Assembly: GCA_947483545.1 (NCBI GenBank)
Contig: CANKNP010000308.1
Span: 1-6,137, forward strand
Origin: Deltaproteobacteria bacterium
Lineage (GTDB): Bacteria; Myxococcota; UBA796; SXON01
Reading direction: 5' to 3'
Length of the DNA: 6,137 bases
Positions 1 to 6,137 of this stretch are shown here, in pieces. The position numbers and the translations under genes were made by a program. The notes under the pieces are model-generated. The model was not told the origin of the DNA and made no database searches. It worked only from the letters and a program-made list of their open reading frames with translations. Numbering within the stretch: position 1 is the stretch's first letter; each line of letters opens with the position of its first letter.

Positions 1-1094
1 ATCTCCGCCTCGCCGTCGCCGTCGAAGTCCGCGACCGTGGGGGGACCGCCGTACGAGCTGGACGCGGACGGGATGTTGGCAGTGCAGAGCACGGTGCCGT
101 CATCGTCCTGCACGCGCATCTTTGCGTCGCCGGTCAGCGCGAATTCCCCGAATTCGTCGGAGTCGAAGTTGCCGACCGCCGGGTACAGGTCCTGCTCGCC
201 GTTGGACCACAGCGCGTTGCCATCGATGTCATACATCGCGTTGCCGGCGATCAGCTCCAGCTCTCCGTCCTGGTTGATGTCCACCGCGAACGCGCCGGAG
301 CCGACGTTGCTGGACGTGCCGTAGCCGTAGCTCCCGCAGCCGAGCTTGCTCCCCGAGTTGTCGAGAATGCAATTCCCGATCAACACCTCCGGGTTGCCGT
401 CGTGGTCCATGTCGGCGATCCCGGGGGCGTCCGAGGTGCCGTCCATGTGGCCCGACCCGCCGGTCCACGACCACTTGTCGTTGCCCTCGTTGTCGAACAC
501 ATCCACGCCGTTGCTGGTGGCCGCGATGACCTCGACGAGGCCGTCGTTGTCGATGTCCCCGCAGGCCGCACCGCCCGTGATCTGGATCCCGCCGCTGCCC
601 GAAGTCGCCCAAAGTTCCGTGCCGTCGTCGCCGTTCAGCGCCCGGAGCACGCCGGGGGAGTAGGTGATGATCATGACGTCGGGCGTGTCATCGTCGTCGA
701 TCTGGCCATCGCCGTTGTCGTCGGTGAGCGAGCAGACGATGGGCTGCATCATGCAGCTCACGGAGCCGGTCGTGCCCATGGTGAACGTCAACGTCTCCCA
801 CAGCACCTCGGGCGTGAACGTGCCGACCGTCGTGCCGTCGGAGAAGCACTCCTCAAGCTGGGGGATGTCCTTCGCGGGGTAGTAGGCATCATCGCAGGAG
901 GGCAGGGGAGGGGCGCTGTCCGGGGAGTCGGGCACCGACGTGTCCTCGCTGTCCACGGTCGGGACATAGGCCTCTCCGGTGTCAAACGTGGGTTGTTCGG
1001 TGGGCTTCTTCGTCAGCCCATTGTCGATCTTGCACGCGGTGGTGGAGACAGCGAGGAGCAGCAGGACGGCGTAGCGGGGAGATGTGGGGGTCAT
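1..1094 (-). CDS. FG-GAP/VCBS-repeat surface lipoprotein, N-terminal part (runs off the window)
   Basis: The frame is open from an ATG at 1094 to the left edge: 364 complete codons and no stop, so the C-terminus lies outside. An AGAGG ribosome site sits five bases before the ATG (1100-1104). Residues 1-21 are a lipoprotein signal: a leucine-rich core (10-16), then TTA-Cys21. Residues 22-66 are an acidic D/S/T/P linker typical of tethered surface proteins. From about residue 125 there are repeated Asp-rich blades of the DxDxDG type: DDNGDG (125-130), GDIDNDG (179-185), IADMDHDG (226-233), AVDINQDG (269-276), VGNFDSDEFG (307-316) and VADFDGDG (354-361). The spacing fits FG-GAP/VCBS beta-propeller blades that bind calcium in the alpha-integrin manner. 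Family knowledge suggests an outer-surface or periplasmic binding/adhesion protein; the substrate is unknown. Paired cysteines (67, 83, 114, 121, 178, 242, 253, 337) may form disulfides. No catalytic domain is seen in this part. Confidence 0.9.
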   Translation of the reverse strand, partial: MTPTSPRYAVLLLLAVSTTACKIDNGLTKKPTEQPTFDTGEAYVPTVDSEDTSVPDSPDSAPPLPSCDDAYYPAKDIPQLEECFSDGTTVGTFTPEVLWETLTFTMGTTGSVSCMMQPIVCSLTDDNGDGQIDDDDTPDVMIITYSPGVLRALNGDDGTELWATSGSGGIQITGGAACGDIDNDGLVEVIAATSNGVDVFDNEGNDKWSWTGGSGHMDGTSDAPGIADMDHDGNPEVLIGNCILDNSGSKLGCGSYGYGTSSNVGSGAFAVDINQDGELELIAGNAMYDIDGNALWSNGEQDLYPAVGNFDSDEFGEFALTGDAKMRVQDDDGTVLCTANIPSASSSYGGPPTVADFDGDGEAE

Positions 1095-1246: not shown

Positions 1247-1264
1247 TGGGGGGCAAGCCCCCCA
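1247..1264. repeat. Left copy of an 18-base self-complementary repeat
   Basis: TGGGGGGCAAGCCCCCCA is an 8-bp stem with a two-base AA centre (in practice a four-base CAAG loop). The pairing extends one base pair outwards here (G1246/C1265). An identical 18-mer lies exactly 126 bases downstream at 1373-1390. The pair brackets the three-way-junction element, as terminal repeats would bracket a small mobile cassette. Confidence 0.8.
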
Positions 1265-1273
1265 CGCCCCCCG

Positions 1274-1349
1274 CGAGCCGGGGTGCGGTCGAGTACGACC
1301 GCATACCCGTCGTCGTCGGGAGTACCCGACGACGACGGGACCCGGCTCG
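1274..1349 (+). repeat. Three-way-junction palindromic element, copy A
   Basis: The closing stem CGAGCCGGG (1274-1282) pairs with CCCGGCTCG (1341-1349). Inside it sits a 9-bp hairpin, 1283-1291 with 1296-1304, loop AGTA (eight Watson-Crick pairs plus one G-T). A 16-position hairpin follows, 1305-1320 with 1325-1340, loop AGTA; its inner 15 bp are perfect and its outermost A-A is unpaired. In total 33 of 34 positions pair, with only the two loops unpaired. A further weak hairpin, TGGT/ACCA around TGAGT (1354-1366), follows. The element aligns without gaps to copy B. It could be a REP/MITE-like DNA repeat or a structured leader RNA of the downstream gene. It matches no named RNA family known to me. 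Confidence 0.8.
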
Positions 1350-1371
1350 GGTGTGGTTGAGTACCAGCTCG

Positions 1372-2541
1372 TTGGGGGGCAAGCCCCCCATTTCAACGGC
1401 GCCCGTTGGCCTGAGCTCCTGGATCATCCTCCTCGCCGCCCCCTTGGCCGCCTGCACTGGACCGAGCGATCCGCTGCCGGTTGACGACAGCGCGCTGCCC
1501 GCCGCTTGCGTCGAGGAGACCCCAGAGACCGCCGAAAAGGACACCGGCGCCGCCCCCCGCGCCGCCCGCGCGATGTCCGGCGCCATCGACCTCCACGTGG
1601 ACTTCGACGCCGACGCTGAGTCGCTCGGCCTTTACGACTGTGACTACCGGCGTGAGTACACAAATTTCGAGGAGCGGACCGACCTCGGCTGGCTCTGCCC
1701 GACGTGTACGCTGCTCACGCAAGGACGCGCGGTGGTCACCGAGGGCTACGACGACTGCTACGTCCAGATCTCGGACGCGGACGCCGAGCGCACCGAGCAG
1801 CTCGGGCTGATCGAGGGTGACGAGATCGTGCTGCTCGGCAGCAAGCAGAACCTCGTGCTCACCGAGGCCGGGCCGCTCGTCGATGGTGCGGCGACCTGGA
1901 GCTCGGACGGCGAGCTGGACGGTGGGACCTACGTCCTGACGTCTGTCGCCAGCGTTCAGATCGGCGAAGGGACGGGCACCGTGGATGACCCGACGGGCGC
2001 GCGCACGGAGCCGTACGCCTGTGGCTGGCCGACCGAGAGCCCCGGCGGGGCTGTCTCGACCTACACATTTGAGTTGGGATCGCTCTTTCCGGACGCCAAG
2101 CTGCTCGACGCCTGCGAGGAGCGGGTCGCCCTCTGGGATTTTCGCGGCCGCTACCTCGTCATCGACGCGTCGTCGCCCAACTGCGGGCCGTGCCAGGCGA
2201 TGGCTGAGCGGTCGGAGGCGTTCAAGACCCACATGGCCGAGCTTTGCGTGGACGTCGAGATGGTCACGCTGCTCAACGCCGGGCTCTCGGCCGTCAACGT
2301 GCCCGCCGACCCGCTCACCCTCCGAAGCTGGACCACCACGTTCGGCCTCACCTCGGCGGTGTTGGCCGACGAGGGCTTCGGCTACGGCGTGATCGCGCCC
2401 GTGTTGAGCCCCGACGGCGGTATGGGGCTCCCCTCCATCGTGGTGCTCGACCCCGAAGGGCGCGTGATCTACATGGACACCGGCTTTGGCGAGACGTCGG
2501 GCTGGTTTCAGCCGATCGAGGATGTGATTGTGGGGGGGTAG
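1372..2541 (+). CDS. Thioredoxin-fold lipoprotein with CGPC active site (TlpA/redoxin-like)
   Basis: 389 residues from a TTG start. Residues 14-27 form a hydrophobic signal core ending LAA-Cys28, a clear lipobox, so the protein is probably exported and lipid-anchored. Residues 70-205 are an Asp/Glu-rich N-terminal region I do not recognise, with an extra CPTC motif at 109-112. Residues 235-389 resemble a thioredoxin/TlpA domain: NCGPC at 270-274 is the redox motif (the usual Trp before the first Cys is Asn), and GLP (Pro354) followed by a beta strand and DPEG (360-363) fits the cis-proline region. The expected role is thiol-disulfide exchange in the periplasm or envelope. Besides the lipid Cys there are ten cysteines (46, 90, 109, 112, 129, 217, 248, 271, 274, 292). 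The start is uncertain: there is no in-frame ATG or good ribosome site. TTG 1372 gives a lysine-containing n-region; GTG 1351 and CTG 1411 are alternatives. The open frame extends to 1141, but that part crosses the repeats. Confidence 0.82.
   Translation: MGGKPPISTAPVGLSSWIILLAAPLAACTGPSDPLPVDDSALPAACVEETPETAEKDTGAAPRAARAMSGAIDLHVDFDADAESLGLYDCDYRREYTNFEERTDLGWLCPTCTLLTQGRAVVTEGYDDCYVQISDADAERTEQLGLIEGDEIVLLGSKQNLVLTEAGPLVDGAATWSSDGELDGGTYVLTSVASVQIGEGTGTVDDPTGARTEPYACGWPTESPGGAVSTYTFELGSLFPDAKLLDACEERVALWDFRGRYLVIDASSPNCGPCQAMAERSEAFKTHMAELCVDVEMVTLLNAGLSAVNVPADPLTLRSWTTTFGLTSAVLADEGFGYGVIAPVLSPDGGMGLPSIVVLDPEGRVIYMDTGFGETSGWFQPIEDVIVGG
1373..1390. repeat. Right copy of the 18-base self-complementary repeat
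   Basis: Identical to 1247-1264. It overlaps the most plausible start codon of the downstream lipoprotein gene (TTG at 1372), so its hairpin would occlude translation initiation or form part of the signal-peptide coding sequence. Confidence 0.8.
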
Positions 2542-2583: not shown

Positions 2584-2838
2584 ATGTCCATCCAGGTCAA
2601 CGTGCTGGAAGCCAAGACGCAGCTCTCCCGACTGCTCGACCGCGCCGAGGCGGGGGAGGAGGTGATCATCGCGCGCGCCGGACGCCCCGTCGTGCGGCTG
2701 GTTCCGATCACGACCGGTGCGCTCGACGCGCCGCGCGTACTCGGCACACTCCAGGGCAAGGGGTGGATCGCCGACGACTTCGACGCCCCGCTCGACGAGG
2801 AGTTCCTTCTGACGCCGGGCGACCGGCGTGACCGCTGA
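2584..2838 (+). CDS. Phd/YefM-family type II antitoxin
   Basis: 84 residues, typical of the family. The N-terminus carries the family signature: VNVLEAKTQLSRLLDRAEAG (residues 5-24), then EEVIIARAGRPVVRLVP (25-41). This is the dimeric DNA-binding Phd fold. The C-terminal part, with GKGWIADDFDAPLDEEF (58-74), matches the disordered toxin-binding tail common in Phd-type partners of PIN toxins. The ATG follows an AAGAGG ribosome site (2573-2578) with a five-base gap. The antitoxin is expected to neutralise the PIN ribonuclease encoded next and to repress its own operon through the dyad just upstream. The coding end abuts or overlaps the toxin gene, indicating co-transcription. Confidence 0.93.
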   Translation: MSIQVNVLEAKTQLSRLLDRAEAGEEVIIARAGRPVVRLVPITTGALDAPRVLGTLQGKGWIADDFDAPLDEEFLLTPGDRRDR

Positions 2839-2845
2839 GCCCGCC

Positions 2846-3265
2846 ATGACCGTGCTCGTAGACGCCAACGGCCTCCTCTTTGCGCTGCTGGCGCCGGAGC
2901 GCCTCTCCCCTCGGGCGCGCCGGGTCCTCGAGGACCGGAGCAGCGCATTGGTATGGAGCGCCGCCAGCACCTGGGAGGTCGTCGTCAAGGCGCGGCTCGG
3001 CAAGTTGGACCTCGGCGGCGATGTCGCGACCGTGCTGGGGGAGCAGATCCTGCGGATGGGGATGCGGATCTTGCCGGTGGAGCAGGCCCATTCGCTGCGG
3101 GTGGCGAGCCTGCCAGACGTGGATTGGATCGATGCCAGCGGCTCGCCTCGGCGTCACGCCGACCCCTTCGACCGCTTGCTGGTGGCCCAAGCGTTGGTCG
3201 AGGGCCTACCCATCCTCACCGCGGACGACCAGTTCGACCGTTACCCGGTGGAGCGCGTCTGGTAG
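2846..3265 (+). CDS. PIN-domain toxin ribonuclease (VapC-like)
   Basis: 139 residues. The acidic PIN active site is complete: Asp6 in VLVDANG, Glu44 in STWEVVVK, Asp106 in HADPFDR and Asp127 in LTADDQF. The C-terminal FDRYPVERVW is the usual family ending. Such toxins are magnesium-dependent ribonucleases that cut tRNA or rRNA when the antitoxin is lost. I chose ATG 2846 because it places the first Asp at the usual position and lies seven bases after the antitoxin stop. A GTG at 2828 would add six residues and overlap the antitoxin by 11 bases. Oddity: residues 91-103, between SLP and HADPFDR, seem to be an insertion of about a dozen residues; in relatives SLP is normally followed almost directly by HxDPFDR. 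The stop is six bases from the end of the convergent beta-barrel gene, leaving no room for a separate terminator. Confidence 0.92.
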   Translation: MTVLVDANGLLFALLAPERLSPRARRVLEDRSSALVWSAASTWEVVVKARLGKLDLGGDVATVLGEQILRMGMRILPVEQAHSLRVASLPDVDWIDASGSPRRHADPFDRLLVAQALVEGLPILTADDQFDRYPVERVW

Positions 3266-3271
3266 CGCGCC

Positions 3272-3859
3272 TCAAGGCAAATAGAATCGCCCGCCGATCG
3301 CCACGTCAAACTCACCCCGCACGCGCGGGATCACGCCGAGGCCCACGGCAGCCTCCAAGAAGCCCTCCACGGGCACGCCCTCGTGATAGAACGCCATCCC
3401 AATTGGCACACGAAGCGCGAAGATCGACGGGGCGTAGGCGCTGATCGGCGGGCCGAGTCGAAATCTGGGACCGACACCGACGTAGAGAGGGAACGAGAAT
3501 TCCTCGATGTCGGGCGAGTGAAGGGTCGCCAGCGTGTACATGACCTCGGCGTGAACGGCGAGCGTGCCCGTGCTGAAGTCCCAGGCGACCGCAGCGTCGG
3601 CCCACACGCCGTCGAGCTTCGGCTTGTACGCGAGGCTCAAGCCGGTGGGCAGGCCGAGCATGGCGCCGATGCCGATCCCGTCCGGATCACGACCGATGCG
3701 GGTGGTCGTGACTGGCTCAGGCGCCGGGGCCCAGGGGGCGGGTTCGGCGAGGGCGAGGGGGACGAGGAGGGCGAGGAGCACGGCGGGGCGTAACCCGGGG
3801 GGTGTGGTCGCCGGCGGTCGAGTTGGTTTACGGAGGCCCCCCGAACAGCCCCAGCACAT
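3272..3859 (-). CDS. Small outer-membrane beta-barrel protein
   Basis: 195 residues from the ATG at 3859. Residues 27-38 are a hydrophobic signal core ending ALA, with likely cleavage before Glu39. Residues 60-195 alternate in the manner of beta strands and follow a small-barrel pattern I recognise from proteobacterial outer-membrane proteins: GAMLGLPTGLSLAYKP (65-80), VAWDF (91-95), FPLYVGVGPRFRLG (123-136), ALRVPIGMAFY (148-158), VEGFLEAAVGL (164-174) and a C-terminal strand ending GGRFYLP. That size fits about eight strands, too narrow to be a general porin. Its specific function is unknown. The gene overlaps the end of the TPR gene by 32 bases. An alternative GTG at 3781 would begin directly at the hydrophobic core, but without basic residues; the ATG version has an Arg/Lys-containing n-region and a close GGGAG. 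It is the last gene of the minus-strand operon. Confidence 0.78.
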   Translation of the reverse strand: MCWGCSGGLRKPTRPPATTPPGLRPAVLLALLVPLALAEPAPWAPAPEPVTTTRIGRDPDGIGIGAMLGLPTGLSLAYKPKLDGVWADAAVAWDFSTGTLAVHAEVMYTLATLHSPDIEEFSFPLYVGVGPRFRLGPPISAYAPSIFALRVPIGMAFYHEGVPVEGFLEAAVGLGVIPRVRGEFDVAIGGRFYLP

Positions 3860-4451
3860 CGTCTCCCTGGTAGACCGTGATCAGTCGCTGCATCACCAGA
3901 CCGAGCTTCGGGTCCAGAAAGATCGTCCGCCAGGCGGGGTCCTGGGCGACGTCTCGAAACGAGAACCCATACCGTAGCGCCTCGGTCAGCTCCCGCTCAA
4001 AGACCACGACGTCGCCCCGCCGCGCTGCGATGTCCGCGAGGCGAAAATGCGCCGGCCAGGTCTCAGGCGCGTGCTTGACCACCTCCGTAAAGTCCGCCAG
4101 CGCGCCGTCCAGATCCCCGCGCTGAAGCTTCACCTCCCCCCGGTCATACAGCGCAGCCACGAGCGTCGGATCCGCCGTGATCGCGTCGTCCAGCGCGCCC
4201 TCCGCCCGCTCGGCGTCCCCCGCGAGCCGCCACCCCAGGCCAAGCTCGTACGCCAGCTGGGCGGACCCCTGGGCGTCCCGACTGCCAAGCGTCCGTCGCC
4301 ACCGCTTGGCGAATTCCTCTGCGGCCTCCATCTGCGCCACGGAGCCCGCCTGTGCGAACACGGCCGCCTGATCCGCCGCGGCGTTCGCCAGCTCCCGGTG
4401 GTAGTCGGGCGGCGGGATCTCCGCATACGCGGCGGCAAGCAGCAGGATCAC
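3828..4451 (-). CDS. Exported TPR-repeat protein
   Basis: 207 residues from a GTG. Residues 1-10 (MILLLAAAYA) resemble a very short signal peptide without basic residues, cleaved before EIPPPD. Residues 64-97, 98-131 and a weaker 132-165 are tetratricopeptide repeats, with the typical small/large residue pattern (for example LYDRGEVKLQRGDLDGALAD at 101-120). A DPAWRTIFLDPKLG segment (171-184) is common at the end of TPR proteins. TPRs mediate protein-protein contact, so this may be a periplasmic scaffold for its operon partners; that is inference. The GTG overlaps the TGA of the cytochrome gene (GTGA, 4448-4451), implying translational coupling. The preceding run of nine G on the coding strand may serve as a poor ribosome site. 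Confidence 0.85.
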   Translation of the reverse strand: MILLLAAAYAEIPPPDYHRELANAAADQAAVFAQAGSVAQMEAAEEFAKRWRRTLGSRDAQGSAQLAYELGLGWRLAGDAERAEGALDDAITADPTLVAALYDRGEVKLQRGDLDGALADFTEVVKHAPETWPAHFRLADIAARRGDVVVFERELTEALRYGFSFRDVAQDPAWRTIFLDPKLGLVMQRLITVYQGDDVLGLFGGPP

Positions 4452-5983
4452 GGCTGGCCCCCCCCCGTGGGCGCGCGCTCGTGCTCTCCCTTCAGTCCCA
4501 CGCAGGAGACCCGTCTCAGGTATTTTCCATAGTCAAATTCTGGCGAGTTGGCGTCATCATGGCATCCCGTGCAAGTCGCCTCCGTGATCGGCGTCGCGTG
4601 ATTCGCCCGGGGATCGGCCACGTGGGCCGAGAGTGGGCCATGGCAGGACTCACACTGCACCGCCTTCCAGGTGCGCATCGGCACGTCCGCCGTGGACGCA
4701 TTCCCGCCGGGCTGGCCCCACGCCGTCGAGTGGCAACCGACACACTCGGGGTTCGTCGTCGCTCCGCGGGAGACCAGCGCTTGCCAGGCCTTGGCGTGGG
4801 GCGTGAGCGTCCAGGCTGCGAAGTAGTCGGTGTGACAGCCGGTACACGCCCCCGCCGCCTTGTAGCCGACGGTGGTGGACATCTCCGTGCGGGCCTGGGC
4901 CTCGCCGATGCTCTCGACCTTGAAGGCCTCGACGGTGCCCGCCACCGTGCCTGTCGGCGCGGCGAGGTCCGACCCGAGCGGTCGGTCCCGCACAATCGCC
5001 AGATTGCGACCGATCGCGAGCGGGGCCAGCGCCTCCCACGCCGCCTGCACCCGCCCCCGCTCCGCCGTCTCCGAAGCGCCGGTTTGAAGGGACAGTCGCT
5101 CCAGCGCCTCGTCCCAGGCCTTCGCCCTCCCCCCCGCTTCGCCGCCCTCCACCAAGGTCGCCGCACCCGGCGCCGTCCCGATCACCCAGCGCACGACGCT
5201 CACAAAACGCCCGCGGTCGGGCGCTTCGAGGATCGGCGCTCCGCCCGTCAGCCGCGGCGGGTCCAGATCGCCCCCCCGCGTCGCCAGCACCATCCCCAGC
5301 TCAGGCACCCCCTCCGCGATCGCGAGGTTCACCGCCGGGCTGGCGTTCGAGAGCACCACCCAGCCGTCCGCCTCGCCCCCCTCCACGATCGCGCCCTTCA
5401 CGCCGGCCACCAGGTCCGCCGCGCTCACCGGCTCTCCGGGCTGGGCCCCGCTCACCCCGATCACCCCCACGCGCACGCCGCCCCGCTCGAACACCCGCGA
5501 CCCGGGCAGCCCTGCGTTGACCCCCAACGCATCGTGCAACGGCCATCCGTCCGCCACCCTCCGATCCGTAGCGCTCGGCGCCCAGGCGTCCAGCCCCACC
5601 TCTCGGCTCAGGTTCAGCACGGTCTTCGCCCGGAGTACGAGGTCCGGCGCCACCGCCCCGCGCGCCCCCTTCACGAGCATCTCCCCTGCATCGAGCACGA
5701 AGACGGGGTCGCCCTGCGCGCGCAGCTGGTCCACGTACGCCGCTCGCCGCTCAAAGCCCCCATACGGTACGGTCGGGCAGCCACACGGCTCGATCTCGCC
5801 ACGCACTTCGGCGGTCCAGGCCAGCGTCACGCGCTTCGTGGGGATGGCGACGCCGGCCGGTGGCAACGCCCCGCGCTCCTGGCGGGGCGGCAACGCCGGG
5901 AGATCGGGCGTGGCGGGTTCGGGTCCGGAGCAGGCGGCGAGGGCCAAGACCACGCAGGCCAGCTCCAGGAAGTGCCTTACCAC
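4448..5983 (-). CDS. Tetraheme c-type cytochrome lipoprotein with degenerate 5'-nucleotidase (UshA)-like domain
   Basis: 511 residues from the GTG at 5983. The n-region VRH is followed by a hydrophobic core and LAA-Cys18, a lipobox. Residues 50-270 resemble the metallophosphatase/UshA fold: VTLAWTAEVRGEIEPCGCP (52-70), GGFERRAAYV (75-84), VLDAGEM (96-102), GGVRVGVIGVSG (168-179), VVLSNAS (209-215) and DRGRFVSVV (256-264). Family metal ligands appear lost. Residues 360-490 are a cytochrome c554-like domain with four heme sites: CTGCH 380-384, CVGCH 414-418, CESCHGP 444-450 and CTGCH 471-475. His396 (HAKAW) and His454 (SAHV) are candidate distal ligands. The likely role is electron transfer in the periplasm or at the outer membrane; donor and acceptor are unknown. 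The frame is open back to an ATG at 6100, but that start lies inside repeat copy B and would bury the signal peptide, so GTG 5983 is preferred. First gene of the operon. Confidence 0.88.
   Translation of the reverse strand: MVRHFLELACVVLALAACSGPEPATPDLPALPPRQERGALPPAGVAIPTKRVTLAWTAEVRGEIEPCGCPTVPYGGFERRAAYVDQLRAQGDPVFVLDAGEMLVKGARGAVAPDLVLRAKTVLNLSREVGLDAWAPSATDRRVADGWPLHDALGVNAGLPGSRVFERGGVRVGVIGVSGAQPGEPVSAADLVAGVKGAIVEGGEADGWVVLSNASPAVNLAIAEGVPELGMVLATRGGDLDPPRLTGGAPILEAPDRGRFVSVVRWVIGTAPGAATLVEGGEAGGRAKAWDEALERLSLQTGASETAERGRVQAAWEALAPLAIGRNLAIVRDRPLGSDLAAPTGTVAGTVEAFKVESIGEAQARTEMSTTVGYKAAGACTGCHTDYFAAWTLTPHAKAWQALVSRGATTNPECVGCHSTAWGQPGGNASTADVPMRTWKAVQCESCHGPLSAHVADPRANHATPITEATCTGCHDDANSPEFDYGKYLRRVSCVGLKGEHERAPTGGGQP
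4458..4466 (-). repeat. G9 homopolymer at the cytochrome/TPR gene junction
   Basis: Nine consecutive C on the plus strand (G on the coding strand) encode the Gly-Gly-Gly near the cytochrome C-terminus. They sit six bases before the GTG of the TPR gene. Slippage here would change the last cytochrome codons and move its stop relative to the overlapping start. Confidence 0.6.
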
Positions 5984-5994
5984 CCCAGCCCCCG
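5977..5994 (-). repeat. 18-base direct repeat, copy 1 (contains the cytochrome start)
   Basis: On the minus strand CGGGGGCTGGGGTGGTAA includes the GTG start codon of the cytochrome gene and the G-rich stretch before it. An identical 18-mer lies 47 bases upstream. Confidence 0.75.
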
Positions 5995-6023
5995 GTGAAA
6001 ACGTCCGCCAGACGGAAGGGAAT

Positions 6024-6041
6024 TTACCACCCCAGCCCCCG
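6024..6041 (-). repeat. 18-base direct repeat, copy 2
   Basis: Identical to 5977-5994. Its GTG (6030-6028) opens an out-of-frame 17-codon reading frame whose TAA (5979-5977) overlaps the start of the cytochrome gene. Between the two copies lies the short inverted repeat CGTC/GACG. Confidence 0.75.
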
Positions 6042-6053
6042 CGGAAAGGCACC

Positions 6054-6129
6054 CGAGCCGAGGGCCGGTTTCGGAGGGTACTCCCGACGAAAGCGGCCAC
6101 GCGCTCGTAGTCGAGCGCATCTCGGCTCG
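6054..6129 (-). repeat. Three-way-junction palindromic element, copy B
   Basis: Read on the minus strand, CGAGCCGAG (6129-6121) pairs with CTCGGCTCG (6062-6054). The short hairpin pairs 6120-6112 with 6107-6099, loop ACTA. The long hairpin pairs 6098-6083 with 6078-6063, loop AGTA. In all 31 of 34 positions pair (one as G-T); the three mismatches are in the long stem. It is the same length as copy A, aligns without gaps at 57/76 identity, and is also preceded by a CCCCCC run (6137-6132). It ends 70 bases before the GTG of the cytochrome gene and is in sense with it. The window edge cuts off whatever lies further upstream. Confidence 0.8.
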
Positions 6130-6137
6130 CCGGGGGG

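Follow-up and report, generated by a model that had tools for sequence, protein, structure and literature searches.

Two diverged copies of a putative three-arm palindromic repeat in an uncultured Myxococcota-like bacterium

Miniature elements of the MITE type are characterised by terminal inverted repeats, a target-site duplication and a parent transposon. REPINs consist of two REPs in inverted orientation and are mobilised by RAYT transposases; compensatory changes are reported to be common in them, and a 'clover' fold to be possible (PMC3116915). Most of the REPs monitored in a further study carry a GTAG or CGTC tag at one end (PMC3733652). According to another study, template switching can give rise to compensatory changes in hairpins and to paired changes of several bases, most compensatory changes there being isolated and uninformative as to mechanism (PMC8794818). 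In this study, we examined two copies, A and B, of a 76-nt three-way junction in a GC-rich window of 6,137 nt (the whole stretch of DNA analysed), whose closest searchable relatives are metagenome genomes, mostly titled Myxococcales, Myxococcota, Deltaproteobacteria or proteobacterium. The reading we favour, and hold to be somewhat better than even, is that A and B are two copies, since diverged, of an interspersed palindromic repeat that is short and GC-rich, probably does not code for protein, belongs broadly to the REP/MITE-like class and is confined to the lineage of this uncultured Myxococcota-like organism.

Copy A lies at 1274..1349 on the plus strand and copy B at 6054..6129 on the minus strand, and both fold as an outer stem around two hairpins. 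The fold of A reaches -66.5 kcal/mol (z -9.2) and that of B -50.0 kcal/mol (z -6.8), with 0/200 shuffles folding as well as the real sequence for A and 0/200 for B. On the plus strand of A, the 5' arm of the outer stem (1274..1282) pairs with its 3' arm (1341..1349), a stem of 9 bp in both copies with one compensated change. Hairpin 1 (1283..1304, plus strand) has a 9-bp stem with one compensated pair and two wobble switches, and hairpin 2 (1306..1339, plus strand) has a perfect 15-bp stem whose arms are a triplet repeat, three of the 15 pairs being broken in B; at most one unpaired base stands at the foot of the inner hairpins. The loops are those already described in the earlier note, AGTA in A and ACTA in B for hairpin 1, and AGTA for hairpin 2.

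Like a REPIN, the element is a palindrome outside clear genes, for which a branched 'clover' fold is possible and which shows compensatory changes between copies (PMC3116915), whereas neither of its inner hairpins is an inverted copy of the other and no GTAG tag stands at the stem foot. Between hairpins 1 and 2 of A there is no inverted-repeat pair of at least 9 nt, and both loops read AGTA on the same strand, unlike the halves of a REPIN doublet. With the tagged REPs it has in common short hairpins in intergenic DNA and 4-base loops, in REPs sometimes inside larger palindromes; it differs, as a 76-nt three-arm unit, in length from the 20-40 bp of those high-copy repeats, and the 15-bp stem of hairpin 2 of A exceeds the 5-13 bp given for their stems (PMC3733652). 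An unpaired end tag, GTAG or CGTC (TGTC/CCTC), is absent at A and B, which sets both copies apart from tagged REPs; GTAG can be read across the loop of hairpin 1 in B, on the opposite strand, and hairpin 2 contains CGTC, in neither case as an unpaired end tag. The perfect 9-bp outer arms of A and B form terminal inverted repeats around a core without a recognised gene, as in a MITE, in contrast to which no target-site duplication or parent transposon was identified. An attC identity appears unlikely from the motifs of attC sites. The element may work like tagged REPs or REPINs, yet we do not file it as a member of either; its general kind is probably a known one, and its three-arm shape is the less usual feature.

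The two copies align without a gap and are identical at 57 of 76 positions, in agreement with the 19 differences first reported. Among the 33 pairs, 23 are identical, five have changed on both sides and are still paired, two have gained or lost a wobble through a change on one side, and three are broken in B. The five two-sided changes (G1281-C1342 to A6122-T6061; G1288-C1299 to C6115-G6104; C1306-G1339 to G6097-C6064; C1311-G1334 to T6092-A6069; G1312-C1333 to T6091-A6070) were reproduced, as were the two switches between Watson-Crick and G-T in the basal pairs of the short hairpin, 1283-1304 and 1284-1303, and, read from the alignment, the A-A opposition 1305/1340 of A that is a G-C pair in B. 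The claim that the same fold is kept holds in that both copies are three-way junctions and 30/33 pairs survive; it left out the three broken pairs, all in the long hairpin (the equivalents of 1310-1335, 1316-1329 and 1317-1328). When the 16 paired-site substitutions were placed at random on paired sites, at least five compensated double changes arose in 13, 9 and 41 of 200,000 trials (transition shares 0.33, 0.5 and 0.67), statistics that carry some selection bias because the copy pair was chosen by eye. Column shuffles, whose power on a two-row alignment is inherently low, reached five double changes in 19/500 cases. When the partners were shifted by 1-3 columns, no double change was left.

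How such paired changes arise bears on a further claim of the earlier note, that they reflect selection on, or copying of, a structure. The copying of a foldable unit with mostly matched arms is supported; selection does not follow, since template switching can yield the same paired changes (PMC8794818). Quasi-palindromes subject to template switching are expected to show paired, sometimes adjacent, two-sided stem changes, as seen here, although this is a mutational mechanism and not an element family (PMC8794818). At 1310/1335 both sides have changed and pairing is lost, next to the compensated pairs 1311-1312/1333-1334, so that both arms have changed along the run 1310-1312/1333-1335 and two of its three positions are paired, a cluster that template switching could make. 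A and B might then be no family at all and have no mobility, the second copy arising by a single duplication of an ordinary strong quasi-palindrome whose arms were matched by template switching. The adjacent two-sided changes fit such arm-to-arm copying (PMC8794818), the triplet-repeat arms of hairpin 2 in A look as if perfected by it, and only two copies are known; we nevertheless judge this course of events unlikely, and repeat activity of a more general sort is suggested by what surrounds A, namely the palindromes and the partial hairpin copy. Two copies are too few to separate selection, copying from intact units and template switching.

Homology between A and B extends beyond the 76 nt at both ends, giving inverted-repeat arms of 87 nt at 77%. 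On either side of the outer stem the sequence is ...CCCCCCG / GGTG... for A and CCCCCCGG / GGTG... for B, where the common C-run (6130..6137, minus strand) is one base longer than in A and ends with the window, 8 nt past B. Since these flanking bases are common to both copies, the true boundary of the element lies outside the 76 nt. Around A, the 18-nt palindrome TGGGGGGCAAGCCCCCCA stands to the left (1247..1264) and, in a second perfect and identical copy, to the right (1373..1390), and a decayed fragment of hairpin 1, corresponding to its 5' half, follows at 1349..1364 (plus strand; 14/16 identical to 1281-1296, 88%). No target-site duplication was identified around A or B, with only 8 nt visible past B. 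The interspersed-repeat reading is thus supported by a three-arm fold shared despite 19 differences, by five compensated pairs, by homology beyond 76 nt, and by the palindromes and decayed partial hairpin copy that flank A, as in clustered repeats; against it stand the mere two copies known, the lack of a target-site duplication and the absence of a transposase among the scanned ORFs.

The genes of the window were assigned by Pfam. An FG-GAP protein (3-1094, minus strand) and a redoxin-like protein (up to 2541, plus strand) are followed, between A and B, by a Phd/YefM antitoxin and PIN toxin gene pair (2584-3265, plus strand), an ORF without a Pfam match (3272-3859), a TPR protein (3828-4451, minus strand) and a cytochrome c554-type gene (4448-5983, minus strand; the start is our choice, and the database version is 10 residues shorter). 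Among the seven window ORFs scanned, one of which had no match at all, there were no matches to transposase or recombinase families, and a tRNA scan of the window found none. With gene starts as we read them, copy A lies between two divergent genes and copy B upstream of the cytochrome gene, about 70 nt from position 5983. From their N-termini, judged by eye, we read the FG-GAP, redoxin-like and cytochrome proteins as putative lipoproteins. From element A to its hydrophobic N-terminal stretch (1351-1410) the redoxin-like gene has no in-frame ATG; in-frame GTG/TTG codons directly after A, at 1351, 1357 and 1372, are possible starts, and if one of them is used, the second 18-nt palindrome would encode part of the N-terminus. 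Between copy B and the cytochrome gene, a 24-nt sequence, TTACCACCCCAGCCCCCGGTGAAA, occurs twice (92%) 47 nt apart, at 5977-6000 and 6024-6047, and its first copy overlaps the likely cytochrome start.

This placement also allows a structured RNA leader, in which A and B would be transcribed in the 5' UTRs of the redoxin-like and cytochrome genes and have a cis-acting role, such as an influence on translation or on the stability of the mRNA. Both copies are upstream of, and in the same orientation as, a gene with a lipoprotein-like N-terminus, an agreement that with two copies has even odds, and both wobble pairs, one in A and one in B, are G-T on the named strand. The predicted energies on named and opposite strand are -66.5 and -64.6 kcal/mol for A, and -50.0 and -55.1 kcal/mol for B, so that A would fold better on the named strand and B on the opposite one, not a consistent preference of RNA type. 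Beyond the AGTA loops hardly any base is unpaired, five relatives with the cytochrome gene show no element, and 4227 Rfam families, scanned as covariance models over the whole window, gave no match up to E 1, in agreement with the previous statement that no named RNA family of this shape is known. No sigma-70-type promoter match was found in the A and B regions, which carries little weight in this phylum, and no terminator-like site was found at A or B. Taken together, we regard an RNA leader as distinctly unlikely. A coding element, as an in-frame palindromic insert, was rejected, the 19 differences falling 7, 5 and 7 by codon position without a third-position excess. Because the same reading frame is open through A and B, with translations that align at 49% identity, that the repeat is non-coding is something we infer; translated searches of a protein collection, in which only proteins of similar length could be found, gave 34 candidates with none at E 1 and 36 candidates with none at E 10.

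Further copies, which the earlier note had proposed to seek in relatives with a covariance model and BLAST, did not come to light. The two-copy model scores its own copies at 103.5 and 95 bits; among 45 relatives' loci, their own opposite strands aside, no match exceeded 27 bits (best 26.9 bits, E 0.04), and none was convincing. Searches of whole genomes gave no match at E 0.01 among 22 genomes of the family and 63 of the order, and none at E 0.001 among 377 of the phylum, negative evidence that is weak, as these groups overlap, at most 12 to 150 candidates per genome were scored and no positive control genome was included. Seven matches at E 0.098-0.757 fell in 6/11 relatives' genomes (those of 11 of the 45 loci). 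The lower E-values obtained for the places of whole-genome matches (0.0016-0.016) and for one further locus, L089 (0.003), are a product of re-searching pre-selected pieces and were discarded. Five weak locus matches were folded with their flanks, and four have other shapes. The match at L034 (19.4 bits, E 1.3), when folded with its flanks, gives a branched stem that bears two hairpins, of which one measures 15 bp, and without them two separate hairpins. The sequence before it is presumably the C-terminal end of GroEL, and we take the match as a probable terminator from this position and from the two separate hairpins.

Searches by sequence or by shape alone gave a similar result. The exact pattern built from A and B had no match in GTDB genome contigs or in viral contigs, and neither had a 22-mer of copy A in viral contigs. 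BLAST in 71 class genomes found pieces in 20/71 with copy A as query (at most 60/90 bases) and in 10/71 with copy B (at most 47/84), and no such element was seen by eye in the folds viewed, namely the listed surroundings of pieces in loci L083-L102; the two longest pieces had no locus and lay outside that set. Among the best 20 of 66 and best 20 of 218 matches in phages and plasmids, all had E 0.1 or more and coverage of at most 40%. A loop pattern matched 5/63 and 31/377 genomes, at places that by eye look coding and not palindromic, none of which was kept; the reversed control pattern likewise matches some genomes (three in the 63-genome set). The flanking palindrome with C-run was absent from the 63 order genomes at up to two mismatches and, as an exact match, from the 377 phylum genomes. 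A generic scan for three-way junctions returned both window copies and 32 others in the 45 loci, a small excess over the 22 that a single Markov control of all 46 sources contained. Per base, the energy of A is the lowest among the listed junctions (five values compared), and three other junctions with a long hairpin (L008, L017 and L034) follow the same GroEL-like end. Literature listings on Myxococcota repeats and branched repeats contained nothing pertinent. Since no copy was found in any relative searched, the repeat family is to be called putative.

The cytochrome locus itself can be followed into relatives. In the five nearest (L001-L005; cytochromes at 57-61% identity), the cytochrome and TPR genes are adjacent in 5/5 and no element is detectable at the cytochrome gene, which fits a later insertion in the lineage of the window. 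The same comparison bears on whether A and B could, as inverted terminal repeats, mark the ends of a segment of about 4.9 kb that moves or has been exchanged, given that they are inverted and enclose 4.7 kb with the Phd/YefM-PIN pair. This is very unlikely: cytochrome and TPR genes stay together in all five without detectable ends, the ORF without a Pfam match is within the fetched stretch in 4/5 (once on the other strand, once 3.4 kb away), the scanned ORFs contain no transposase or recombinase family, and the two ends differ by 25%. In the more distant loci, among 18 of the 45, the TPR gene, where found, is apart and on the other strand. Upstream of the cytochrome gene, L001-L005 have a stretch resembling GGATTTACTGGAACGTGACACGATACAT (5/6 relatives viewed), possibly a shared promoter or operator. 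Four records (L005, L010, L011 and L036) are titled Bifidobacterium breve or Klebsiella pneumoniae, yet their cytochromes, 42-58% identical to that of the window, resemble those of other Myxococcota-like relatives, and the titles are probably wrong.

A dispersed hairpin of another sequence was met in a family-level relative, genome G019. Its query, at L008 (5443-5510), is GC-rich with arms like GTAGGGGGGGAACCCGC, and has 13 matches at 10 distinct dispersed places including the query, against zero in two other genomes; the generic junction scan had led to it, and the result is a post hoc one that comes from a single selected query. The matches mostly cover the single long hairpin and not the outer stem, and the fetched copies mostly fold as single hairpins; similar sequence follows in several copies, some have a GTAG-like start, and the L008 junction has matches in L009 and L042. 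By eye there is no sequence likeness to the window element. The G019 hairpin is possibly a REP-like family, and by its presence at 10 places and absence from two other genomes it indicates that genome-specific dispersed hairpins do occur in the family. G019 has one weak Y1 transposase match, and Y1 transposases (PF01797) exceed the family cut-off in 12/22 family genomes; a possible mobiliser thus exists in the family, although presence does not show that it is cognate.

For the repeat in the window, we propose that the unit would spread as a foldable piece of DNA whose copying is done in trans, perhaps by an enzyme with specificity for single-stranded DNA hairpins. Its arms may afterwards be kept matched partly by arm-to-arm template switching and partly by copying from intact units; selection for foldable DNA, needed for copying, would be a third way to the same end. 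Effects on downstream genes would be a side effect of the landing site. In a more ambitious version, which we put forward as quite unlikely, mobile DNA elements shaped as three-way junctions with AGTA hairpin loops would form a new family; a transposase able to read both hairpins inside a single stem would move them in single-stranded form, and correction of one arm from the other would preserve their shape. If a family of the repeat exists in this lineage, it would add a branched type to the small palindromic repeats, for which two copies are a pointer and not a test, and its copies would provide many natural pairs with which to separate selection on the fold from template switching.
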